Part shown: in pieces, positions 2,945 to 23,196 of the stretch
Layout of the letters: every line of letters starts with the position of its first letter
Position numbering within the stretch: position 1 is the first letter of the stretch
Translations under genes and position numbers: made by a program
Notes under the pieces: model-generated
What the model saw: only the letters and a program-made list of their open reading frames with translations
What the model was told of the DNA's origin: nothing
Databases searched by the model: none
IMG/VR virus record: IMGVR_UViG_3300012936_000177
Coordinates: 1 to 23,357 of that record
Origin: a virus
Length of the DNA: 23,357 bases
Reading direction: 5' to 3' (one strand)

Positions 2945-3556
2945 ATGATCATTGGAATTTGTGGTTTAATTGGTAGCGGTAAAGGCACTGTTGCTGATGT
3001 ATTAGTCGAACAACATAATTTTACAAAAATAAGTTTTGCAGACAAGTTAAAAGATGGTGTTGCAACTGTGTTTGGTTGGGACAGATCAATGCTTGAAGGA
3101 GACACAGATGAAAGCAGAGAATGGCGAGAACAAGCAGACAGATTCTGGTCAACAGAAACTAATGAGCACATTACCCCTAGATTGGTCCTTCAAATGTTTG
3201 GCACTGATTGTATGCGTAATGGCTTTTATGATGGTATTTGGGTAAGTCTTGTTAAACAACAATTACTACATGATACTACAAAAAACTATGTAATACCTGA
3301 TGTAAGATTTCCAAACGAAGCTGACATGATACATTCTCTAAAAGGACAAGTCTGGCATGTCAAAAGAGGTCCTGATCCAGTTTGGTTTCGCATGTATCAG
3401 GACATAGGTGTTGAACCTAAAGATGTACATGAATCAGAATGGCGTTGGGCAAATGTAAACTTCAATGCAATTATAGGTAATAACACAACCATTGATGATC
3501 TTAAAAGTCAGGTATCAAATCACCTTGCCTCCAACGCACACCTTGCTTCTGCATAA
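2945..3556 (+). CDS. 1: Deoxynucleoside monophosphate kinase (T4 gene 1-like)
   Basis: Phosphorylates deoxynucleoside monophosphates with ATP to supply dNTP precursors for phage replication; cytoplasmic. The N-terminus has a P-loop GLIGSGKGT at residues 7-15, followed by ISFADKLKDGVATVFGWDR (substrate-side region) and VIPDVRFPNEAD, a stretch typical of the phage dNMP kinase family. At 203 residues it is shorter than T4 gp1 (241). The ATG at 2945 has AGAGGAA upstream at good spacing and is served by the consensus sigma70 promoter, so it should be expressed early although it sits among late genes. Its last 56 bases overlap the 3' end of the opposite-strand HNH gene, so about 18 C-terminal residues are encoded antisense to that gene. 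Confidence 0.85.
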   Translation: MIIGICGLIGSGKGTVADVLVEQHNFTKISFADKLKDGVATVFGWDRSMLEGDTDESREWREQADRFWSTETNEHITPRLVLQMFGTDCMRNGFYDGIWVSLVKQQLLHDTTKNYVIPDVRFPNEADMIHSLKGQVWHVKRGPDPVWFRMYQDIGVEPKDVHESEWRWANVNFNAIIGNNTTIDDLKSQVSNHLASNAHLASA

Positions 3557-3947: not shown

Positions 3948-6900
3948 ATGGCTTTAACATCACCAGGAGTACAGGTCAGCGTAATAGACGAAAGTTTCTA
4001 TACCCCAGCTGAGCCGGGTACAGTGCCTATGATTTTTGTTACCTCTGCAAGTAACAAACCAAATGCATCAGGAACAGGAACAGCATCAGGCACATTAAAA
4101 GCAAATGCAGGTAAGCCTTTCTTGCTTACTTCACAAAGAGATTTAGCGGATACATTTGGAGATCCGATATTCAAAACAGATAATAACAACAACCCAATTA
4201 ACGGCGGCGAACTGAACGAATATGGTTTACAAGCGGCATATAGTTTATTAGGTGTTAGCAATAGAGCTTATGTTGTTAGAGCTGATGTTGATTTAGGAGA
4301 ACTAGAAGCAAGCGCAGATGCGCCTAGTGCAAATCCATTAGCAGGAACGTACTGGTTTGATACAGCAAATACAAAGTATGGTATTCAACAATGGAATAGT
4401 AATCCAATTAATACCACAGGTGGACAAACATTTACTACCAAAACACCGTATGTAATTTATAAACAAAATGAAGTTGTTGATTATGACGGTGGTAACTATG
4501 CACCATTAGCGTCAATCGGAGCAATAGGTACATATGCATTAGTAGCAGTAACAACAATTAACAAACTTTGGTATAAAAACTCAAGCGGTTCATGGGTTGA
4601 AGTTGGAAGCAACGACTGGACAAAGAGTTGGCCAACAGTAAAAGGTTCGGTAGCAAATCCTACTTTTGCAGGTACAGCAGACATTACAATTAACGGAAGT
4701 GTTGTGTCAGTTGGAAGCAACACAGTTACACAGATTGCGGATGCTATAAATGCAGGTATAGGATTAGGTGGTGAAATATCAGCTGCCGCAGTAGACGGAT
4801 TTTTAGAAATTTACAGCAATGGTTCTAGCTCAGGAGCAGACGACTCAACATTAGGCGGTCCAATCGTAATTGGTGGTGATGCAACAAGACTGTCAGAGTT
4901 AGGAATCACAGCAGGAAGCTACTATCCTCCAGCATTACAAATTTCAGCACATACAAGTGTACCTGAATGGAAATCAGGAGATACATACCCACGCCCATCC
5001 GGAAGTGTTTGGTTTAAAACAACATTACCTAATGGCGGTGCAAAATTAATTGTAAAATTATGGAACAGTGGTACATTACTATGGGACGAGCAGTCTTCTC
5101 CAATATATGATAATGCCGCAAGTGCAATTTACAATTTGGACTCAACAGGAGGCGGTGCAAATTTAGCAATTGGTGATTTGTACGCAAAGAGTAACGTAGC
5201 GGCAGACACACAGCCTATGGCAAATTTTACAATTTTCCGTAGACAGGCAAGTGGAACAACTAAAATTACTAGTGCGGCGATTACTGGTAGTGCTCCGGGA
5301 GCAGGCACATTTACATTTACAATGCAAGCAACTGACACAGGTTCAGCGGCATATTCAGCATTAAAGACTGTAAGTGTTACTACTACTGGTTCTGCAAGCG
5401 GTGATGCAAACTTAATTGCAAGTGCTATTACTTCAGCTAATCTTGAGCATGTAAGTGCAACAGTTGATTCTGCAAATAAAATTGTTATTAGTCATGCAAC
5501 TGGTGGGGAAATTAAATTTGTTGATACAGACGGATTATTGAATGGAATTGGTTATAAGCCTTTTGATGCTAACGATTCTAGTTCAACACCAAATCTTGCA
5601 TTTGTCGATGGAACTACTAATGCTACAAGTCCTAAGCAGTTTCAAGCAACAAACTGGCGTGTTCTTTCATACACTGCAAGCGACGATGCAGTAACATCGT
5701 TAGCAACGCAAGGACAGCTTTGGTACAATTCAATTGTGGACGAAGTTGACATGATGTGGCACAATGGAACAACATGGGTAGGATATGGTGATTCAACAGC
5801 CTATCCAAATGCAAGTCCAGAAGGACCGATTGTTTCAGCAAGTATGCCAACTACACAAAGTGACGGTAGCGCACTTGTAACAGGTGACCTTTGGATTAGT
5901 ACAGCAGACTTAGAAAACTATCCAACAATATATCGTTACAACGTAGACATTTCGGGAACAACTGCCCAAAAATGGGGAAGCCCGCTAGACACAGGCGACC
6001 AAACAACTGAAAACGGTGTATTGTTTGCTGATGCACGTTATGGTACTGACGGCGGAACAACTACTACAGCACCTGACGGTACTATACCAGAACTGCTTGC
6101 AAGTAATTTCTTAGATCCAGATGCACCAGATCCTGCACTATATCCAAAAGGTATGTTGTTATGGAATCTACGCAGAAGCGGATTTAATGTAAAACGTTTC
6201 GAAAGAAACTATATTGATACATCAAGCGAAAACAAGCGCCAAGATGATGTTTCAATGGCAAACTACTATCCACATCGTTGGGTAACAGAATCAGGAAATC
6301 AAGCTGATGGTTCAGGTAGCTTTGGACGTAAAGCACAACGTAAAGTAGTTGTTCAAGCTCTACAAGCATTAGTAAACAGCAATGATGATATCAGAGATGA
6401 TGAATCAAGATTGTTCAACTTAATGGCAACACCAGGTTATCCAGAACTAATTGGCGAAATGATTAGCCTAAACTATGATAGAGGCTTAACAGCATTTATT
6501 TTAGGCGACTCACCGTTTAGACTAACACCTGATGCAACATCATTAAACGATTGGGCAACAAACGTTAATCTAGCAGTTGAAGATAATGATAGAGGTCTTG
6601 TAAGTAGAGACGAATATTTAGGAATCTTCTACCCTGCAGGATTTACAAGCGATAATGCAGGTAACAACGTAGTTGTTCCAGCATCACACATGATGCTAAG
6701 AACAATAGCACTGAGCGATCAAGTTTCGTTCCCATGGTTTGCACCAGCTGGTACAAGACGTGGCGGTATTACTAACGCAAGTTCAACAGGGTTCATAAGT
6801 AACGAAGGAGAATTTGTACCTGTAGCACTAAATGAAGGACAAAGAGATACACTGTACTCAAATAATGTGAACCCAATTACATTTATTACAGGTGCAGGAC

Positions 6901-7265
6901 TTGTAAACTTTGGACAGAAAACTCGTGCAAGAGGCGCAAGTGCATTGGATAGAATCAATGTTGCAAGACTAGTAATTTACTTACGTAGCCAACTTAACAC
7001 ACTTGCTAAACCTTATATCTTTGAACCAAATGATAAGATTACTAGAGATGAGATCAAGCAAGCGGCTGAAAGTTTACTATTAGAACTTGTAGGACAGCGT
7101 GGATTGTATGATTACTTGGTAGTTTGTGATGAGTCAAACAACACACCTAGCAGAATAGATAAAAATGAACTATACTTAGACATTGCTATTGAACCTGTTA
7201 AGGCTGTTGAGTTTATCTACATACCATTAAGATTAAAAAATACTGGAGAAATATCAGGACTATAA
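3948..7265 (+). CDS. 18: Contractile tail sheath protein gp18, enlarged
   Basis: gp18 polymerises around the tail tube and contracts to drive the tube through the host envelope. The N-terminus MALTSPGVQVSVIDES and the region of residues 20-120 (SNRAYVVRADVDL at 104-116) are typical. The C-terminal conserved part runs from about residue 730 to 1105: YPKGMLLWNLRRSGFNVKRF, the AGTRRGGI segment, INVARLVIYLRSQLN, and FIYIPLRLKNTGEI at the end. Between them, residues about 121-715 form an insertion that makes the protein 1105 residues against 659 in T4. It holds several short GxLW(Y/F/I) modules (near 132-150, 206-220, 352-382, 589-614, 646-680). It also has two similar Ser/Thr/Ala-rich alpha/beta units (about 238-326 and 440-540), probably displayed on the outside of the sheath. 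Start ATG has AGGAGA upstream. Confidence 0.93.
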   Translation: MALTSPGVQVSVIDESFYTPAEPGTVPMIFVTSASNKPNASGTGTASGTLKANAGKPFLLTSQRDLADTFGDPIFKTDNNNNPINGGELNEYGLQAAYSLLGVSNRAYVVRADVDLGELEASADAPSANPLAGTYWFDTANTKYGIQQWNSNPINTTGGQTFTTKTPYVIYKQNEVVDYDGGNYAPLASIGAIGTYALVAVTTINKLWYKNSSGSWVEVGSNDWTKSWPTVKGSVANPTFAGTADITINGSVVSVGSNTVTQIADAINAGIGLGGEISAAAVDGFLEIYSNGSSSGADDSTLGGPIVIGGDATRLSELGITAGSYYPPALQISAHTSVPEWKSGDTYPRPSGSVWFKTTLPNGGAKLIVKLWNSGTLLWDEQSSPIYDNAASAIYNLDSTGGGANLAIGDLYAKSNVAADTQPMANFTIFRRQASGTTKITSAAITGSAPGAGTFTFTMQATDTGSAAYSALKTVSVTTTGSASGDANLIASAITSANLEHVSATVDSANKIVISHATGGEIKFVDTDGLLNGIGYKPFDANDSSSTPNLAFVDGTTNATSPKQFQATNWRVLSYTASDDAVTSLATQGQLWYNSIVDEVDMMWHNGTTWVGYGDSTAYPNASPEGPIVSASMPTTQSDGSALVTGDLWISTADLENYPTIYRYNVDISGTTAQKWGSPLDTGDQTTENGVLFADARYGTDGGTTTTAPDGTIPELLASNFLDPDAPDPALYPKGMLLWNLRRSGFNVKRFERNYIDTSSENKRQDDVSMANYYPHRWVTESGNQADGSGSFGRKAQRKVVVQALQALVNSNDDIRDDESRLFNLMATPGYPELIGEMISLNYDRGLTAFILGDSPFRLTPDATSLNDWATNVNLAVEDNDRGLVSRDEYLGIFYPAGFTSDNAGNNVVVPASHMMLRTIALSDQVSFPWFAPAGTRRGGITNASSTGFISNEGEFVPVALNEGQRDTLYSNNVNPITFITGAGLVNFGQKTRARGASALDRINVARLVIYLRSQLNTLAKPYIFEPNDKITRDEIKQAAESLLLELVGQRGLYDYLVVCDESNNTPSRIDKNELYLDIAIEPVKAVEFIYIPLRLKNTGEISGL

Positions 7266-7297: not shown

Positions 7298-7927
7298 ATG
7301 GCAATATCAACACTATCAAAAATTACAGTTCCACTGGCTAGCGGAGATTCCGCTAGTAACCAGGGACTATTGATGCCAAAACTCCAATACCGCTTTAGAG
7401 TGAGTTTGGAAAACTTTGGCGTAAGTACACCAACAACAGAATTAACAAAACAGGTTATAGATGTAACTAGACCTAATGTTAGTTTTGAACAAATGACACT
7501 TGATGTATATAACTCAAGAGTATATCTAGCAGGTAAACATACTTGGGAACCAATTACACTTAATCTACGTGAAGATGTAAACAACAATGTACAGAAACTT
7601 GTAGGTGAGCAGTTGCAGAAACAATTTGATTTCTACGAGCAGTCAAGTGCGGCGTCAGGGCAGGATTATAAATTTACAACACGTATTGAAATACTAGATG
7701 GTGGTAACGGAGCAAATGTACCAACTGTACTAGAAACATTTGAATTATACGGTTGTTACTGTGAAAGTGCTAACTACAATTCATTAGCATATTCAAACTC
7801 AACTGATCCAGTAAGTGTTACACTTGCTATACGTTACGATAATGCAATCCAGTCACCACAAGGTACAGGTATTGGAACAGCAGTAGGACGTACAGTTAAC
7901 ACAGCAGTAACAGGCGGTGGCGCATAA
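7298..7927 (+). CDS. 19: Tail tube protein gp19
   Basis: gp19 hexamers stack into the inner tail tube inside the sheath and guide DNA into the cell. The 209-residue protein shows the family pattern: YRFRVSLENFG near residue 31, a middle VTRPNVSFEQMTLDVYNSRVYLAGKHTWEP-type region with the tube-family tract around residues 55-85, VLETFELYGCYCES near 147-160, and PVSVTLAIRYDNA near 177-189. It follows directly after the sheath gene, the standard T4-like order. T4 gp19 is 163 residues; the excess here is in an N-terminal extension and a Gly/Thr-rich C-terminal tail. ATG 7298 has a good AGGAG. A terminator follows. Confidence 0.92.
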   Translation: MAISTLSKITVPLASGDSASNQGLLMPKLQYRFRVSLENFGVSTPTTELTKQVIDVTRPNVSFEQMTLDVYNSRVYLAGKHTWEPITLNLREDVNNNVQKLVGEQLQKQFDFYEQSSAASGQDYKFTTRIEILDGGNGANVPTVLETFELYGCYCESANYNSLAYSNSTDPVSVTLAIRYDNAIQSPQGTGIGTAVGRTVNTAVTGGGA

Positions 7928-8016: not shown

Positions 8017-9303
8017 ATGGCAAATAAATTTAACGCATTACTTGATAGTATAGCCACAGGTGCTTTAACACCAAAGGGAAATTTAGGTGATTGGCAACAT
8101 GCATCTAGACTGTATGTTGACAGCAACATGCGTCTTGCACCAAAAAGCAAATTTAATTATCATGTACAGTTTGTTGTAACATCTGAAGGCGCAAGCATTA
8201 TCCCAAAATTGTTTGCAGGATTACCTTTAAATGAAATAGGTATGCTTGTAAAACAAGCAGATTTACCAAAATATTCTTCTAATGTTGATCAAAAAAGAAA
8301 ATACAATAGAATTAAAAACGTACAAACAGGTGTAAACTATACTCCTATAAATATAACATTTCATGATGATAATCAGGGATTAACAACTGCTCTTTTACAA
8401 GCCTACTATAGATATTATTTTGCAGATGGTAACCAAAGAATTAATGCTGGTAGAGCATATGCAGTAAAGCCTCATAATACATATATGGGCACTGAAATGA
8501 ACAAATACAAATATGGTATGGATGTAAATAACCCAGGTGTGCCTTTCTTTAAGGAAATAAGAATTAGCACTATGTCAAGAGGTGAGTACGTCACATATAC
8601 ATTAGTAAATCCATTGCTAACCGAATGGAGTCACGATGATGTCAATAATTCAGACGGTCAAGGTACATTAGAAAATAGAATTACAGTTGCATATGAAGCA
8701 GTCTTTTATGAGAGCGGAAAAGTTAGCGCAGGAGCCAATGGTGCACCAGCAGGATTTGGTCAAGATCATTATGATACAACACCAAGTCCTATATCACTTG
8801 CTGGTGGAGGAGCAACAGGACTAGGGGCCGCTATAGAAGGTGCATTTAGTTTATATGATTTTATTGCAAGCGGCGAAGCGTATGAAAATCCGTTACTTGC
8901 AGTGTTGATGGGTGCAAATTTAATTGGCAACATCAGAGGACTAAGCAAAGAAGGATTAAGACAAGAAGGATTTGGATTGTTAACCGGTGCGCTAGGAGCG
9001 GCAACTGGTATAAATGTTAGCGGTGTAAGTCAAACACTATTTCCTAAAAATGGAGGCAAAGGTGGAAGCAAGGATCTATTATTAGCGGCGGCTGGCGTTG
9101 CGGCAGTTGGTGCAATAACAAGTAGTAAGAGCTTTCTTAAAGGCAATCCAGCGGCACTAGATAGTGCAATGCAAAGACAAGCAGTGAAAAATTTCCAATC
9201 AGCAACTGGTGGTAGTGTATCTGACGGTAAAGCCGCATACGAAGCATCAAAAAGTAACCCTAATGATATGGCGGCATTAGAAAGACAAGTACTAGGAACA
9301 TAA
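8017..9303 (+). CDS. Tube-like structural protein, possible gp54-type tube initiator
   Basis: Residues about 40-240 resemble the tail-tube fold: KSKFNYHVQFVV, then LVKQADLPKYSSN, NVQTGVNYTPINITFHDDN, YFKEIRIS-like strands, YVTYTLVNPLLTEW and ITVAYEAVFYES. The remaining C-terminal part (about 255-428) is Gly/Ala-rich with hydrophobic helices (LLAVLMGANLIG, LLLAAAGVAAVGAI). A tube domain followed by a small-residue-rich tail recalls T4 gp54 and gp48, which start the tube on the baseplate, so I favour a baseplate-tube junction role. A second tube or tail-terminator role is possible. It has its own late promoter after a terminator and runs into two further small genes with 1-base gaps. Assignment beyond tube-like structural protein is inference. 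Confidence 0.6.
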   Translation: MANKFNALLDSIATGALTPKGNLGDWQHASRLYVDSNMRLAPKSKFNYHVQFVVTSEGASIIPKLFAGLPLNEIGMLVKQADLPKYSSNVDQKRKYNRIKNVQTGVNYTPINITFHDDNQGLTTALLQAYYRYYFADGNQRINAGRAYAVKPHNTYMGTEMNKYKYGMDVNNPGVPFFKEIRISTMSRGEYVTYTLVNPLLTEWSHDDVNNSDGQGTLENRITVAYEAVFYESGKVSAGANGAPAGFGQDHYDTTPSPISLAGGGATGLGAAIEGAFSLYDFIASGEAYENPLLAVLMGANLIGNIRGLSKEGLRQEGFGLLTGALGAATGINVSGVSQTLFPKNGGKGGSKDLLLAAAGVAAVGAITSSKSFLKGNPAALDSAMQRQAVKNFQSATGGSVSDGKAAYEASKSNPNDMAALERQVLGT

Positions 9304-11206: not shown

Positions 11207-13789
11207 ATGGATATCAGAGACTTAATTAAAACAGCAGACGTATACGGAAAAGAAGTTGAAAATCAAAAAAGCAAAATTGACGAAGATTTAGTTGGCTGGT
11301 TAAAGAAAACTTTAGGTCTCACAGACGCCGAAGAACAACAAATTGACGATGCTTTAGGTAAGGCGGGTGTAGATACATCAATAACACCCGATCCATTAGG
11401 ACTAGCTAATCCAAAAAAAGAACCTAAAGATGCTCCTAGAGATGGCGGCAATCCAGGAGGCACTTCTACAGCAGTTGAACCAGAAGTACAAGAATTTAAA
11501 GATATCGGCGATGCTATGTTAAATGTAGACAAAGTCAAAAAAGGTGATAAAGTTAAAATTGGAGGCGTAGAAGCAACAGCTGATGCAGGAGACGACGGAA
11601 AAATATTCTTTGTAGACGCTGACGGCAAGTCTATTTCAGCTACAGACCAAGAAGGAGGAGTTGCCCAAGGAATGGATCAAATAGAAGATCCTGATGCAAC
11701 AGATCCACGTGGTGACCAAACTACTCCGCCAGCAAGACAAGGTATTGACGGACCAGCAGATGCGGCGGCACAAGGTGGCGATAGCCTAGCAAAAAAATTA
11801 CCAACAGATCAAAATCTTATGAAAGCATACAATGATGGCGGCAAAAAACCAATGCAAGCTGTCAAAGACCTACAAACTTCTCTGAGCAGACTAGGACATG
11901 ATCCAAATGGTATAGACGGAAAATATGGTAATGGAACATATGCGGCAGTACAAGCATTCCAAAAAGCAAACGGATTAAGTGTAGACGGACAAGCAGGACC
12001 TAACACCCTAAAAGCAATACAAGATGCATTAAACAAAGGTGCAAGCACAGGTGCAAGCAACGCAGATCAACAAGCCGATGCACAAGCTCAAGGAGACCAA
12101 ACAGCGGCTGACAATCAAGCGGCTGCCGACGATGCACAAGATCAAGGTAATGCTAACTTTGCAGACGATCCACAAGCAACAGCTACACCAAATTTAAAAC
12201 AAAAAATAGATAGATTTAATGAACTACTTAAAAAATTACAAACACCAGACGTAGCTGGTGATCCAAACGCACCGACCTTAGTTGCAAGCAAAGATTTTAG
12301 ACACTTGATTGCACTTGTTGAAGGTGTGTTAAATGAAGCACTAACAGCTGAAGAAGAAAAAGAATTACAAGCACTATATCAAGAACTACAAGGTAGCGTT
12401 GGTGTAGAGCCAGACTTAGACCAAGCAATTGAAGATGCACTTAACAATTACCTTAAAGTAAAAGGTGATCCAGCATCTCCACAGACTGATGCAGAGTTAG
12501 ATAATGATGCTGTTGACAGTGGAGGAGAAGTAAAAGACACTACAGGTACAGATGGTAGCGATACAGAAGGTGAGCCGCCAGCAGTTACACTAGACAGTCT
12601 AGCAGGACAAATCAAACAAGGCATCAAATTTGATCAGTTTGCTAAAATTGTTAAAGATGCAGAAGCATTAGAACCAGAAGATGCAGAAAAAGATGCTAAC
12701 CTATTAAAGAAACTAGGCACAAAAGCCAAGCAATTAATTAGCACAGCAGATTACAGAAGTCGTTATGTAATTGCTAACGGCGCACAAAACTTGCAAATAG
12801 ATGGATTGTATCGTCCAGACGGAAGCAGTTTTATCTTTATGCAAAACGGTGAACCTTCAAGCGCAAAGGGCGGAACGTTAAATCAAGCAATGCAAGTTGC
12901 ACAAATGGGACTATTACCACAACAAAAGGTAGATGCGTTTACAAAACGTGCAGTAAAAGATAAGAAGTTCCAAGCAGTAATTGATGCACATAACAAAGCA
13001 ACTGGCGCAACACCTGCTCAACAAGATGATGCACAAGCCACTGATCCAAACGCACAAGGCGGCGAAGAACAAGTAATGTCACAAGATGTTACACCTAGTG
13101 TAGAAAAGAGAATTAATTCTAAAGGAGATAGAGACAATTTTAACCTATCAAGTGCAAGAAGTTTGCCATACGTTGACACAATTGAGGATGGCAAGCGTAC
13201 AAGAACATACGGTGACAAAGCCGCACTTGAAAAAATGTTCCCAGGTAAGAAAATAGGCGGTATTAAAGCACCAGCTGAACCAAAGAAAGAACCAACAAAA
13301 GCACCAGCGCCACAGGCAACGGGTACAGTGCAAATGGCTAGTAAGGAGCACGATATGACAAAACAAATCAACGAAGCATCAATGAACATTTCAATGAATG
13401 GTGCAGATGCAAAAGAAGTTGCAGACTTAGTAGCAATACTAAAAAATGCAGGAATGGATAGTTCACATATTGACATGCCAATGGCACACATGCATACACC
13501 AGAACCAGAAGGTCCTATGCCGTGTCCATCATGCGGAGGTGATCATGGAGATTCTCCATGTGGAATGGGAGAACAAACAGTAGACGAAGGTGAATGGGAT
13601 AACTCACCAGAAGAAACATATGCAGATCATCATACAATGACCAAAGATTTGTCAGGTGGTATCAATAGACAAAAAGATAGAAAAGCTATCAGGGTAAAAG
13701 ATCCAGCAATTGAATCTATCAAAAGTGATCTACAAAAAGCATTAGAAGAAGCATACAAAAAGAAAAAATCAAAAAAGAAAAAATACTAA
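11207..13789 (+). CDS. Large acidic protein with peptidoglycan-binding-1 domain, likely virion-related
   Basis: The 860-residue protein is highly acidic and modular. Residues 1-55 are a small N-terminal unit. Residues 215-275 match the PG_binding_1 fold (AVKDLQTSLSRLGHDPNGIDG, GNGTYAAVQAFQKANGL, VDGQAGPNTLKAI). An Ala/Gln/Asp low-complexity linker spans about 278-325. Further helical and beta segments follow, then MTKQINEASMNISMNGADAKEVADLVAILKNAGM late in the protein. A Cys/His cluster (CPSCGGDHGDSPCG) and a very basic end (YKKKKSKKKKY) close it. Lack of a signal peptide and of lysis-type catalytic motifs argues against an endolysin. I infer a structural or core protein contacting cell wall or scaffolding. 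It lies between gp16 and gp17 and ends at a terminator. The exact function is unknown. Confidence 0.75.
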   Translation: MDIRDLIKTADVYGKEVENQKSKIDEDLVGWLKKTLGLTDAEEQQIDDALGKAGVDTSITPDPLGLANPKKEPKDAPRDGGNPGGTSTAVEPEVQEFKDIGDAMLNVDKVKKGDKVKIGGVEATADAGDDGKIFFVDADGKSISATDQEGGVAQGMDQIEDPDATDPRGDQTTPPARQGIDGPADAAAQGGDSLAKKLPTDQNLMKAYNDGGKKPMQAVKDLQTSLSRLGHDPNGIDGKYGNGTYAAVQAFQKANGLSVDGQAGPNTLKAIQDALNKGASTGASNADQQADAQAQGDQTAADNQAAADDAQDQGNANFADDPQATATPNLKQKIDRFNELLKKLQTPDVAGDPNAPTLVASKDFRHLIALVEGVLNEALTAEEEKELQALYQELQGSVGVEPDLDQAIEDALNNYLKVKGDPASPQTDAELDNDAVDSGGEVKDTTGTDGSDTEGEPPAVTLDSLAGQIKQGIKFDQFAKIVKDAEALEPEDAEKDANLLKKLGTKAKQLISTADYRSRYVIANGAQNLQIDGLYRPDGSSFIFMQNGEPSSAKGGTLNQAMQVAQMGLLPQQKVDAFTKRAVKDKKFQAVIDAHNKATGATPAQQDDAQATDPNAQGGEEQVMSQDVTPSVEKRINSKGDRDNFNLSSARSLPYVDTIEDGKRTRTYGDKAALEKMFPGKKIGGIKAPAEPKKEPTKAPAPQATGTVQMASKEHDMTKQINEASMNISMNGADAKEVADLVAILKNAGMDSSHIDMPMAHMHTPEPEGPMPCPSCGGDHGDSPCGMGEQTVDEGEWDNSPEETYADHHTMTKDLSGGINRQKDRKAIRVKDPAIESIKSDLQKALEEAYKKKKSKKKKY

Positions 13790-15440: not shown

Positions 15441-17195
15441 ATGAAAAATTTAGACTTAATATCAGAAGAACTATTTAATAAAATACGTGGGCGTTTTCCA
15501 AGCGTTACTATTGGTAATGCAGACGGACAGGTTACTAACAAACCAAATGAAGCAAGATTTTTTGATTTTGACTTCAAAGAAGGTACTGTCAATCTAGGTA
15601 AAGTAAGCGTAAGTGTATCAGAAGAAGCAATAGAAGTTATGTATAGTGACAACTTTGTTGCAGAGCAAGATGAAATAACAAAAGAAAAATGGTATAATTT
15701 CCTCAAGGAACTTAGACAATTTAGCAAAAAAAGGTTAATGAAATTTGATACTAGGAATTTAAATAAGTCTAATTTAGATCGTAGAGACTACAAATTTTTG
15801 GCAACAAATCGCGGAGATAATACAATGGCTGAATCAAAAATGTATGGCACTAGTAAAATAAGCTACCAAAATGTAGATAATGCTAGGCTAGTAATCAAAC
15901 ACACAGAAAGTGTTAATCAAGAAAGTGTAAACGGACGTATTAGAAATATTGGTAAAATTTATATTGAAAGTGCAGACGGTGAACGTTTCTTATATCCATA
16001 CAAACATTTAACTGGTGCAAGAGCAATGGCAAGGCACGTTGCAGAAGGTGGTAAACCATTTGATGATTTTGGCACACACATTGTAGGGCTAAGTGAAGAA
16101 CTGAACAAACTCCGCAAGTTCAAATCTTACATGGGCCGTTCAAGTGTAATGGCAGAAAGCCTTAAAGATTATATGCCAGTAGTACAAGACAGAATTTCTA
16201 CAGTTAAGAAAACAATTGAATCTCTGCAAAAGCCATTATTTTATAAGACAGCATTTGAATCTTTTGAAAAGCCAATGATGGAAGAAGTACCAAACGATGT
16301 TGCAGAAAATTGGGTTGACCAACTTACAATTAAGCAATTTAACGAAGAACTTAAAGATGTATTTCCTTACATTTATAACTTAGTAAGCGAAGCAACGAAG
16401 GCAGAAGAAGTAGGACCTGAAGGACTTGCTGAAGATCACAGAGAAAAGTACACAGTACAAAAAGGCGACACACTTTACAGCATTGCTAGAGAAATGGTAA
16501 AGTATGAAATGCAGGGTATGAGTGTTCCAGAAGCAGTGCAAGAACTTGCAGAAATAAATGGTATAGATGATCCTGCAATGATACAACCAGGCATGGTTTT
16601 AAATATTCCTTGGAACATGGGAGCAGTAGGCGGTGATCCTATAACTGGTGAACCAATTACTAGAGGACTACCACATGGACATAGTACTGAAGCATCAATT
16701 GAAGATGCATTTGAATCTATGATGGGACAGTTTGCTGAAGGTAAGGATTGTGAATGCAAAGAGCATAATGATCATTCAAAATGCGACGATGACTGTGATT
16801 GCAAAGAATCAGTAACAGAAGAAGAAAAGAACGAAGATGAAACAGAAGGTAATAAGTTTACTAAACAACTGAAAAAGGCAAGAGATAATGGCGATGATGA
16901 AATCGATATGGGCGATAAAAAAATACCAGTAACCGAGTTTGTTTTATCCTTGTTTGATAGAGAAACTGGACAATTTCCAAAAGGCGAAACAGCAGTCCTT
17001 ACAGCAATCGAAAAAGACTATGGTGAACAATTTATTGAACCTGCAAAACAGTTTATAGAAAAAATTAATGCAACATATGAACAATACACTACACCAGACC
17101 AAGAAATAATTGTCGACGATGAACCACAAGGTACTGTTATGGAACCAACAATCGGACAAGAAGAAGCAGATCTTAAAAGATTAGCAGGAATATAA
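15441..17195 (+). CDS. LysM-domain protein, likely virion-associated
   Basis: The 584-residue protein has a conserved-looking N-terminal region (residues 1-130, with LFNKIRGRFPSVTIG and ARFFDFDF). A second region (about 138-240) contains YQNVDNARLVIKH, ERFLYPYKHLTGARAMARHV and LRKFKSYMGRSSVMAE. A LysM domain follows at about 336-389 (YTVQKGDTLYSIAREM ... INGIDDPAMIQPGMVLNIP), then a Cys/His/Asp cluster at 436-456 and an acidic C-terminus. LysM binds N-acetylglucosamine-containing wall polymers. Similar proteins lie near terminase genes in marine T4-like phages, to my recollection. No catalytic lysis domain or signal peptide is visible, so a structural or DNA-delivery role is inferred. It follows gp17 with 13 bases between, behind its own late box. 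Confidence 0.75.
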   Translation: MKNLDLISEELFNKIRGRFPSVTIGNADGQVTNKPNEARFFDFDFKEGTVNLGKVSVSVSEEAIEVMYSDNFVAEQDEITKEKWYNFLKELRQFSKKRLMKFDTRNLNKSNLDRRDYKFLATNRGDNTMAESKMYGTSKISYQNVDNARLVIKHTESVNQESVNGRIRNIGKIYIESADGERFLYPYKHLTGARAMARHVAEGGKPFDDFGTHIVGLSEELNKLRKFKSYMGRSSVMAESLKDYMPVVQDRISTVKKTIESLQKPLFYKTAFESFEKPMMEEVPNDVAENWVDQLTIKQFNEELKDVFPYIYNLVSEATKAEEVGPEGLAEDHREKYTVQKGDTLYSIAREMVKYEMQGMSVPEAVQELAEINGIDDPAMIQPGMVLNIPWNMGAVGGDPITGEPITRGLPHGHSTEASIEDAFESMMGQFAEGKDCECKEHNDHSKCDDDCDCKESVTEEEKNEDETEGNKFTKQLKKARDNGDDEIDMGDKKIPVTEFVLSLFDRETGQFPKGETAVLTAIEKDYGEQFIEPAKQFIEKINATYEQYTTPDQEIIVDDEPQGTVMEPTIGQEEADLKRLAGI

Positions 17196-21018: not shown

Positions 21019-21655
21019 AGAGGACAATGTTATATTTCCTTGGTTGCAAAAAAATCTACAACCACAAACTAAAATTATTGACATAGGTGCAAGAAAGGGT
21101 AACTGGTATAGAAATATAGCAAAGTTTTTTCCTGACAGTGAAGCACATCTATTTGAGCCTACTCCTAAAATTGTTAATATTATAAAACCAAAGTTTAAGA
21201 AAAAACATCAGCATGTTCATCAAACAGCATTAAGTAACGAACAAGGAAATTTAGATTTTCATATTGATCTTGAACTAGGAGGATGGAGCGGCCTAACAAA
21301 GCAAAGAGAAAACGGTAAGTATCAAACTATACAAGTAGAGGTAAAAACACTAGACAGCTTCAATTTCAAAAATGTAGGTTTAATAAAAATAGATGTAGAA
21401 GGTAATGAACTAAAAACACTAATAGGTTCAACTCAAACAATAATAGATAGTAACCCGATTATATATTTTGAATGTGCAGATGTACACATGGTTAATTACA
21501 ACTACGGTAGTTCTGAAATATTTGATTTTTTTGAAAGCATAGATTATAAAATAATTGATCTTGACTTTAACACATGTACTAAACAAAGATTATTAGAACA
21601 CACAGCATCAAGTTCTAGTTTTTACCATAATTTTATAGCATGTCCAAAACAATAG
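21002..21655 (+). CDS. FkbM-family methyltransferase
   Basis: S-adenosylmethionine-dependent methyltransferase; FkbM proteins commonly O-methylate sugars in polysaccharides and natural products. The 217-residue protein has motif I IIDIGARKGNWYR (residues 25-37), HLFEPTP (49-55), an ALSNEQGNLDFH strand region (76-87) and IKIDVEGNELKTL (128-140), the typical FkbM signature. It overlaps the oxygenase gene by 17 bases and the next gene by 16, indicating translational coupling. No membrane segment or signal peptide. The acceptor is not predictable from sequence. Confidence 0.88.
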   Translation: MQYKRKEDNVIFPWLQKNLQPQTKIIDIGARKGNWYRNIAKFFPDSEAHLFEPTPKIVNIIKPKFKKKHQHVHQTALSNEQGNLDFHIDLELGGWSGLTKQRENGKYQTIQVEVKTLDSFNFKNVGLIKIDVEGNELKTLIGSTQTIIDSNPIIYFECADVHMVNYNYGSSEIFDFFESIDYKIIDLDFNTCTKQRLLEHTASSSSFYHNFIACPKQ

Positions 21656-22401
21656 AAGTACATAGAAAAGTACATAATAACGTAGGTGATTATTTTTGTA
21701 ATCCAAGCCGTTACTTTAGTATTGACGTTGACTCGCAAGAATTAATGTATAATCCTACTCCTTTAGATGATAAAGATTTGATAGTAGGAGGTGGCGGCCT
21801 AATACATAAAAAATTTAGCAAACACATACAAATGCTTTTAGATAAAAATCCTAAAACTACAACTCTTTGGGGTATAGGACATAATTTTGGTGCAAAGCAT
21901 GTTAGCAAAGTAGGTGATGTGTATTATCCTGATTGGATAGAACGTTGCGATCTTATTGGTATAAGAGATTGGATTGACGGATATCACAAATGGTATTTGC
22001 CTTGTGTAAGTTGTATGCATCCTTGTTTTAGTTGGGACTATAAGGTTAGGCACGACACTGTATATTTCATTCATGCATATAAAACAAAATATCAAAGCAA
22101 CGAAATGCCTGTTATGAAAAACAACAAAATGAATTTTGAAGATGTTATTGCATTTTTAGGAAGTGCAGAAACAGTTGTGACAGATAGTTATCATGGTGCA
22201 TATTGGGCACAACTATTAGGAAAAAATGTACACGTTGCTAGTTGGAGCGTTAAGTTTGATCATATGAAGCACCAACCTAATTTCCTTGAATCTATCAATA
22301 GTCCTTTACCTAGTATTAAAAATAAAATACCTGGATTTTTAGAAGAATGTCAAGAACACAATAGAAATTTTTATTTGAAGTTTCGAAACATTACTTCTTA
22401 G
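21640..22401 (+). CDS. Polysaccharide pyruvyl transferase-like protein
   Basis: The family (PS_pyruv_trans, CsaB-like) moves pyruvate from phosphoenolpyruvate to sugars to form ketal-pyruvylated glycans. In this 253-residue protein, NNVGDYFCNPSRYF (13-26), LIVGGGGLIHKKF (47-59), TLWGIGHNFGAKH (75-87), LIGIRDW (105-111) and SAETVVTDSYHGAYWAQLLGK (175-195) are the characteristic segments. It is shorter than many bacterial members (about 300-380), with a reduced middle. A Cys-rich PCVSCMHPCF (121-130) sits mid-protein. Overlap with the FkbM gene places it in the same late unit. It could instead transfer another group within a GT-B-like fold. Confidence 0.78.
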   Translation: MSKTIEVHRKVHNNVGDYFCNPSRYFSIDVDSQELMYNPTPLDDKDLIVGGGGLIHKKFSKHIQMLLDKNPKTTTLWGIGHNFGAKHVSKVGDVYYPDWIERCDLIGIRDWIDGYHKWYLPCVSCMHPCFSWDYKVRHDTVYFIHAYKTKYQSNEMPVMKNNKMNFEDVIAFLGSAETVVTDSYHGAYWAQLLGKNVHVASWSVKFDHMKHQPNFLESINSPLPSIKNKIPGFLEECQEHNRNFYLKFRNITS

Positions 22402-22425: not shown

Positions 22426-23196
22426 ATGAAAACAATCGTTCTTGTCACAGGTGGATTCGATCCATTACACTATGGCCACATAGAATATTTCAAAGCCGCA
22501 AAACAATTAGGTGACGAATTACATGTAGGTGTTAATTCAGACAAATGGCTTACTAACAAAAAAGGCAGACCATTCATGCCTTATTTGGATAGATGTGCAG
22601 TTATAGAATCTTTAGAAGTTGTAGATAAAGTAATAAGTTTTGACGATAGTGACGGTAGTGCTTGCGGCGCTATTTACAAAACTATGGCAACTAATGGAAA
22701 AATAAAAATTATTTTTGCTAACGGCGGAGATAGGACAAACACAACTACACCAGAATACAAAACATATGGAGATATGAATGACATAGAGTTTGCATTTGGA
22801 GTAGGAGGCACTAACAAACTTAACAGTAGTAGTTGGTTGCTAGACGAGTGGAAAGCACCTAAGACTGAGAGATCATGGGGGTATTACAGAGTGATACATG
22901 AATATGATAAACACACAAAAGTAAAAGAACTAGCTGTGCCGCCTGGCGGCAGACTATCTATGCAACGTCACGAAAAACGTAGCGAACATTGGTTTGTAGC
23001 CGAAGGCACTGCTACAGTTTATACATTGAACCGTGCAACTGACGTAGAAGAATTTGGAGTGTTTGAACAACATAGAAGTTTACATATACCACAAGGCATG
23101 TGGCACCAGCTTGTCAATGAACATGATGTGCCCTTAAAATTAGTAGAAATTCAATACGGCAAAGAATGTATTGAAGAAGATATAGAAAGAAAATGA
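22426..23196 (+). CDS. Nucleotidyltransferase-cupin fusion, sugar activation
   Basis: Two domains. Residues 1 to about 142 are a HxGH-type nucleotidyltransferase (TagD/RfaE-like): GGFDPLHYGHIEYF (9-22), DRCAVIESLEVVDKVI (55-70), and LNSSSWLL (132-139) in the place of the family ISSS/T motif. Residues about 148-256 are a cupin closely resembling the C-terminal half of type II mannose-6-phosphate isomerase/GDP-mannose pyrophosphorylase (ManC): SWGYYRVIHEYD, GGRLSMQRHEKRSEHWFVAEG, LHIPQGMWHQLVN and PLKLVEIQYGKECIEEDIER. The likely role is activating and isomerising a sugar phosphate for glycan synthesis; substrate and nucleotide are unknown. It follows the pyruvyl-transferase gene by 24 bases, has its own late box, and overlaps the next gene by four bases (ATGA). 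Confidence 0.85.
   Translation: MKTIVLVTGGFDPLHYGHIEYFKAAKQLGDELHVGVNSDKWLTNKKGRPFMPYLDRCAVIESLEVVDKVISFDDSDGSACGAIYKTMATNGKIKIIFANGGDRTNTTTPEYKTYGDMNDIEFAFGVGGTNKLNSSSWLLDEWKAPKTERSWGYYRVIHEYDKHTKVKELAVPPGGRLSMQRHEKRSEHWFVAEGTATVYTLNRATDVEEFGVFEQHRSLHIPQGMWHQLVNEHDVPLKLVEIQYGKECIEEDIERK

Follow-up and report, generated by a model that had tools for sequence, protein, structure and literature searches.

Predicted flagellin/FliD-like domains at two optional positions in the large insert of a jumbo-phage tail sheath protein

The window analysed here, a virus record of 23,357 bases (IMG/VR record IMGVR_UViG_3300012936_000177), contains a tail sheath gene at 3948-7265 on the plus strand, encoding 1105 residues. 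The protein matches the 'tail sheath' profile PHROG 10581 (915 positions) along its full length, from residue 1 to 1100 (E 1.1e-225), as well as PF17482 above its cut-off (E 4.1e-14), while PF04984, searched in the same record, gave no match. It shows the core fold of a contractile tail sheath and aligns with T4 gp18 at both ends. The identification as a sheath thus follows from PF17482, the PHROGs and structure. As expected of a sheath gene, a tail tube gene lies beside it (7298..7927, plus strand; 209 aa; phrog_4542 tail tube, E 3.2e-52). A larger second tube-like gene (8017-9303, plus strand; 428 aa) adjoins the 209-aa tube gene and matches tail tube families at E 1.7e-13; RaK2 carries three tube-like genes consecutively. 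Upstream of the sheath gene lies a deoxynucleotide monophosphate kinase gene (2945..3556, plus strand; PF21448, E 1.8e-16), and the order from this kinase to the sheath is shared with RaK2, 121Q and PA5oct. The named relatives of the sheath all belong to jumbo phages, i.e., Atu_ph07, Phosso, PA5oct-type phages, SCTP-2, 121Q and RaK2. Querying viral contigs with the SCTP-2 sheath returned zero relatives. An intein, a frameshift or an assembly artefact as the source of the unusual length is unsupported, as the full length is preserved in dozens of contigs. The gene encodes a contractile sheath subunit from a myovirus of jumbo type, and the middle of this subunit carries extra domains.

Four further genes of the window, all on the plus strand, were recorded. 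The gene at 21640-22401 resembles polysaccharide pyruvyl transferase genes, with a match (E 2.9e-5) that falls slightly short of the cut-off, and the one at 22426-23196 resembles a fusion of a cytidylyltransferase with the C-terminal cupin domain of a mannose-6-phosphate isomerase (E 1.9e-23); judged by these matches, the two may form a phage sugar-modification module. In the 860-residue product of 11207-13789, family matches are all but confined to a lone peptidoglycan-binding domain (PF01471, E 5e-19), located in the first third. Gene 15441-17195 encodes a 584-aa protein of virion structural type with a LysM domain.

Both ends of the sheath protein belong to the core. The N-terminal core (residues 1-120; 3948..4307, plus strand) aligns with residues 1-83 of T4 gp18 at an hhalign probability of 66.9 and has a mean pairwise identity of 0.79 among 79 close rows. 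The C-terminal core (residues 721-1105; 6108..7262, plus strand) aligns with gp18 residues 468-650 at a probability of 99.8 and contains the PF17482 match at residues 999-1094. Structural comparison agrees with this assignment: the best Foldseek match of the core was T4 gp18 (E 1.4e-18), and the sheath of the Klebsiella phage KP1 superimposed over 342 residues with a VIA Z of 34.0. A sequence-only reading of this locus had proposed a multi-module insertion between conserved sheath ends at 4308-6092, corresponding to residues 121-715. This is borne out, with core-to-core boundaries from residue 121 to about 720 (4308..6107, plus strand): relatives align from residue 1 to about 120 and then again from 721-722 onward, and both ends were alignable throughout the 151 sheath ORFs from relatives' loci, whose lengths range from 714 to 1292. 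Among the 79 near rows, mean pairwise identity was 0.78-0.90 in three core parts versus 0.42-0.60 in the parts of the insert.

In the hhalign alignment, the insertion point at residue 112 of the window's protein corresponds to residue 83 of T4 gp18, which we take to be the position where the outer domains of gp18 begin. Core and insertion point are thus common to both proteins, whereas their lengths differ (659 aa for gp18 versus 1105 aa), and the insert of about 600 residues has no sequence-profile similarity to the middle of gp18 (best probability 1.8). The gp18 alignment, the alignable ends and the contrast in identity together indicate a genuine insert, located where outer sheath domains are known to be inserted. 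That extra sheath domains are inserted in the core chain is stated in general form in PMC9230969.

To describe the insert, two structure models were used. The full-length model, built from a 128-row alignment, reached a mean pLDDT of 87.1 and a pTM of 0.73, and the model of the insert alone (residues 116-725, 79 rows) a pLDDT of 84.8. Folding by itself at this confidence, and retained or dropped in parts by relatives that keep the core, the insert lies outside the core sheath fold, in line with the earlier reading. The alternative that it forms part of the core fold is ruled out by the core match, the lone folding and the gp18 alignment. Residues from about 590 to 720 behaved differently from the rest, with block means of about 53-86 in the insert-alone model versus mostly 87-95 in the full model; this drop in confidence without the core suggests that the segment is probably packed on the core.

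Along the chain, scaffold and alpha/beta units alternate, all encoded on the plus strand. Scaffold part A (residues 121-238; 4308..4661) is recognized by the HMMs A1 and/or A2 in most relatives. It is followed by the first alpha/beta unit, which occupies a position here called slot 1 (residues 239-330; 4662..4937), and by scaffold part C (residues 331-428; 4938..5231), whose HMM match is retained when the slots are empty. The second alpha/beta unit, in slot 2 (residues 429-545; 5232..5582), precedes scaffold parts E/F (residues 546-720; 5583..6107), which contain two GxLW modules and have the lower confidence without the core described above. By tblastn, parts E/F were found in 15 phage records only, in sheath genes or in sheath-matching genes annotated as hypothetical. 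With two units, scaffold and core, the modelled protein has the composition of a type 3 multi-domain sheath (at least three domains, extras inserted in the core chain).

The two alpha/beta units, already suspected to be similar, proved to be repeats of one another. Comparison of residues 239-330 with 440-545 by hhalign gave a probability of 81.5 (E 1.1e-5, 71 columns), whereas 150 column shuffles reached at most 7.2 and a reversed control 3.2. In the profile comparison of insert regions, these units (regions B and D) were the sole non-overlapping pair above 22%. The predicted order of strands and helices is identical in both, beta-beta-alpha-beta-beta-beta-alpha, and L116 and L163, relatives with a single unit, each match the models of both.

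Structural comparison points to a flagellar fold for both units. The slot-2 unit matched Helicobacter pylori FliD (6iwy; VIA Z 9.2 over 101 residues, 2.4 Å) and Vibrio cholerae flagellins (Z 8.6-8.9), and the slot-1 unit matched Escherichia coli FliD (5h5v; VIA Z 8.0 over 83 residues, 2.3 Å); Z values of 8-9 for FliD exceed the noise level that VIA states only moderately. Solved phage tail chains also matched the insert, namely PhiTE (9cba, Z 8.0) and the A-1(L) sheath-tube (8kee, Z 7.3). Foldseek matches of the insert were weak, the best flagellin scoring E 0.011 at a probability of 0.95. Sequence profile searches of the units against the PDB returned nothing significant among nine matches for slot 1 and eight for slot 2, collected up to E 10; the best E values were 0.37 and 0.23, respectively. 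FliD or flagellin accounted for three of the nine slot-1 matches (E 0.68, 2.9 and 4.2) and for none of the eight slot-2 matches.

The Pfam family PF07196 (Flagellin_IN; cut-off 22.7 bits) gave no match to the window's own two units. It was nevertheless the commonest Pfam match in both slots across relatives, found at E up to 1 in 9 of 33 slot-1 members and 8 of 42 slot-2 members (best E 1.3e-6 and 3.1e-5), and the slot-mates L028 (28.9 bits) and L119 (24.5 bits) lie above the cut-off. When whole records of 15 relatives were searched, three had Flagellin_IN above the cut-off, each with one match in the sheath gene and one of them with a further match outside it. Neither unit searched alone matched PHROG 10581, and tblastn of the slot-2 unit in named phages gave no match. 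As the window's units themselves lack a PF07196 match, we describe them as having the FliD/flagellin fold and slot-mates from the family, and not as Pfam members. In this form, we hold the anatomy and fold of the sheath arm with high confidence.

The short modules with a GxLW-type start and a Trp or Asn-Gly-x-x-Trp end, which had also been proposed, stood up in part. The motif G-x-[LYVMIF]-W occurs four times in the insert and not at all in the core, compared to a mean of 0.41 in shuffled inserts (P 0.0004). The four starts, all on the plus strand, are a GxYW at residues 133-137 (4344..4358), a GxVW at 352-356 (5001..5015) and two GxLW at 589-593 (5712..5726) and 646-650 (5883..5897). The count of Asn-Gly-x-x-Trp ends does not clearly exceed the chance expectation (five versus 1.99, P 0.054), and homologous repetition of the modules was not demonstrable, as the module-bearing regions reached at most 21% in profile comparison.

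To follow the two slots across relatives, the extra length between HMM anchors of the insert parts was scored in 131 of 135 unique proteins, the four without anchors being dropped; the anchors derive from the 79 near rows and lose strength in distant relatives, with some E values up to 0.05. Both slots were bimodal and free of intermediates. The extra length in slot 1 fell between -37 and +5 residues or between +50 and +365, and that in slot 2 between -32 and +3 or between +65 and +454 (n = 131 each). Both slots were filled in 69 proteins, slot 2 only in 26, slot 1 only in 18 and neither in 18, so that slot 1 is empty in 44 and slot 2 in 36 of the 131. A core-column tree required at least eight changes for slot 1 and at least four for slot 2; it was computed by the 'quick' method on 87 of the 131 rows, about one row in three of the both-filled group being kept, and flagged L084, L130 and others as long branches. 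Even within the window's own group of 35 rows, a supported clade of ten is without the slot-1 unit. Relatives gain and lose slot domains, and both positions are optional.

The rate of evolution follows the same division. Given as medians over 28 pairs of eight sequences, dN/dS was 0.057 and 0.066 in the core, 0.105 (part A), 0.163 and 0.104 in the scaffold. The slots, at 0.226 and 0.279, are hence the fastest-evolving part of the sheath, with purifying selection in all regions. Two slot-1 cargos, those of L167 and L148, are of a different kind and resemble the virion structural protein phrog_6005 (matches at E 8.5e-19 and 6.3e-7), and the L167 cargo also matches cyanophage structural proteins in 32 records; the L110 and L148 cargos gave no match by tblastn against phages. 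In L110, sheath residues 290-801 cover a slot 2 with about 454 extra residues and without a Pfam, PHROG or phage tblastn match. The sheaths of Atu_ph07 and Phosso (L081, L082) carry a Flagellin_IN unit at about residues 194-269, ahead of the slot-1 position. This placement complicates their slot assignment and hints at a third insertion point.

A large insert, this domain type and the idea of adhesion are already in print for relatives, and the domain type is known as a lateral domain from solved sheaths of phages. PMC9230969 (2022) describes models of 112 sheaths, including SCTP-2 and Atu_ph07 (1086 aa, type 3, five or more domains), locates the additional domains at a distance from the tube and proposes adhesion, appendage formation or stability for them. 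A lateral sheath domain with the FliD/flagellin fold is reported for Adele, phiTE and Sf14 in PMC12846349, which also reports the fold in nozzle and capsid proteins, and PMC10172136 adds a capsid protein of a crassvirus; where these two papers deal with nozzle and capsid proteins, they do not describe the role as adhesion. The structures 6iwy, 5h5w, 8erm and 7qof, cited in PMC12846349, are all among the VIA matches obtained here. The fold family is thus shared with the type 2 sheaths (phiTE, Sf14, Adele), which, going by that paper, have one FliD-like copy, whereas the window's sheath has two, in two slots of a larger scaffold.

Atu_ph07, the nearest named relative, is 42% identical over 85% of the window's protein and shares core, scaffold, a filled slot 1 and a Flagellin_IN match above the cut-off within the sheath gene; it differs in its empty slot 2 and in the place of its Flagellin_IN unit, which precedes slot 1 at about residues 194-239. 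The sheaths of 121Q, RaK2, PA5oct and SCTP-2 belong to the same gene family but are shorter (879-955 aa), and for 121Q, PA5oct and SCTP-2, the three with a slot score, slot 1 is empty and slot 2 holds a different cargo. What is added here, relative to a literature search not aimed at either point, is the duplicated unit and the two-slot pattern.

Taken as a whole, the reading towards which we lean, with modest confidence, is that of a sheath core bearing an exchangeable outward display arm. The N- and C-terminal ends form the ordinary sheath core, identified by its fold match, which wraps the tube and contracts; injection would be the task of this core. The scaffold departs from it where the outer domains of T4 gp18 start, and its two loops each hold one domain with the flagellar-cap or flagellin (FliD D2-like) fold. 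Across relatives, each loop is either empty or filled with a FliD-like or another virion-surface module, with the core unchanged; loops so variable on a constant core suggest that the arm is a dispensable, exchangeable outer display on every subunit. The two-slot pattern and the fast evolution of the slots fit such an arm. Its outward position is very probable, judged by homology and the T4 insertion point. Staying out of contraction, the arm could offer many weak contacts, and its likeliest job would be to engage the cell surface or its polymers weakly and at many points ahead of contraction; in the relative phAPEC6, 25 hexameric rings amount to 150 sheath copies (PMC7247149). Adhesion as the main job is plausible, and we put it forward tentatively.

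A mainly mechanical role is the rival that we consider viable, if rather unlikely: scaffold and lateral domains would hold together adjacent subunits, or adjacent rings, in a tail that is long and wide, with the slots as passengers. Reinforcement of this kind was proposed for extra sheath domains in PMC9230969, citing phage 812, and it is consistent with purifying selection across all regions. It stays viable since the E/F part, with its loss of confidence when modelled alone, seems to need the core, and since the outward placement of the arm rests on homology. The repeated changes of the slots, both of which are empty in 18 of the 131 proteins, and their position as the fastest-evolving regions argue against it.

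The insert could instead be a docking site for separate tail appendages, e.g., the hairy fibres of 121Q/phAPEC6-type phages, an idea also proposed in PMC9230969. Tail-associated hairs are described for 121Q/phAPEC6 and CBB, and whiskers for Atu_ph07 (PMC7247149, PMC6102473). However, the phAPEC6 hairs are confined to three rings of a sheath made of 25 rings of one protein (PMC7247149), which makes docking less likely, the Atu_ph07 whiskers are mainly capsid-borne (PMC6102473), and 121Q lacks a slot-1 domain; we regard this explanation as improbable. Quite improbable, too, is a specific receptor- or glycan-binding module resembling a tail-fibre tip. The insert is Trp-rich, with 16 of the sheath's 20 Trp residues, but several Trp residues are invariant in the family, which suggests a part in the fold rather than in variable specificity. 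Moreover, Pfam and PHROGs yielded no carbohydrate-binding or lectin family for the window's insert, with none reaching a cut-off in Pfam, and the VIA matches listed include no lectin, although a missing match is no exclusion.

Returning to the display arm, the unusual central part of a sheath widespread among jumbo phages can now be described as a scaffold with two flagellar-type domains at positions that are optional across 131 proteins. This distinguishes the parts required for contraction from mere cargo and points to natural sites of insertion in a contractile tail. More speculatively, and with considerable doubt on our side, the sheath of this jumbo-phage group might be a general two-slot display platform, with a conserved scaffold on each subunit offering two exchangeable cargo positions. 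The cargo would come from a domain pool in common with flagella and other surface proteins of virions, and its exchange would adjust the stickiness of the tail side towards cells or polymers. The question why big phages have oversized sheaths becomes testable by deletion of a single slot.
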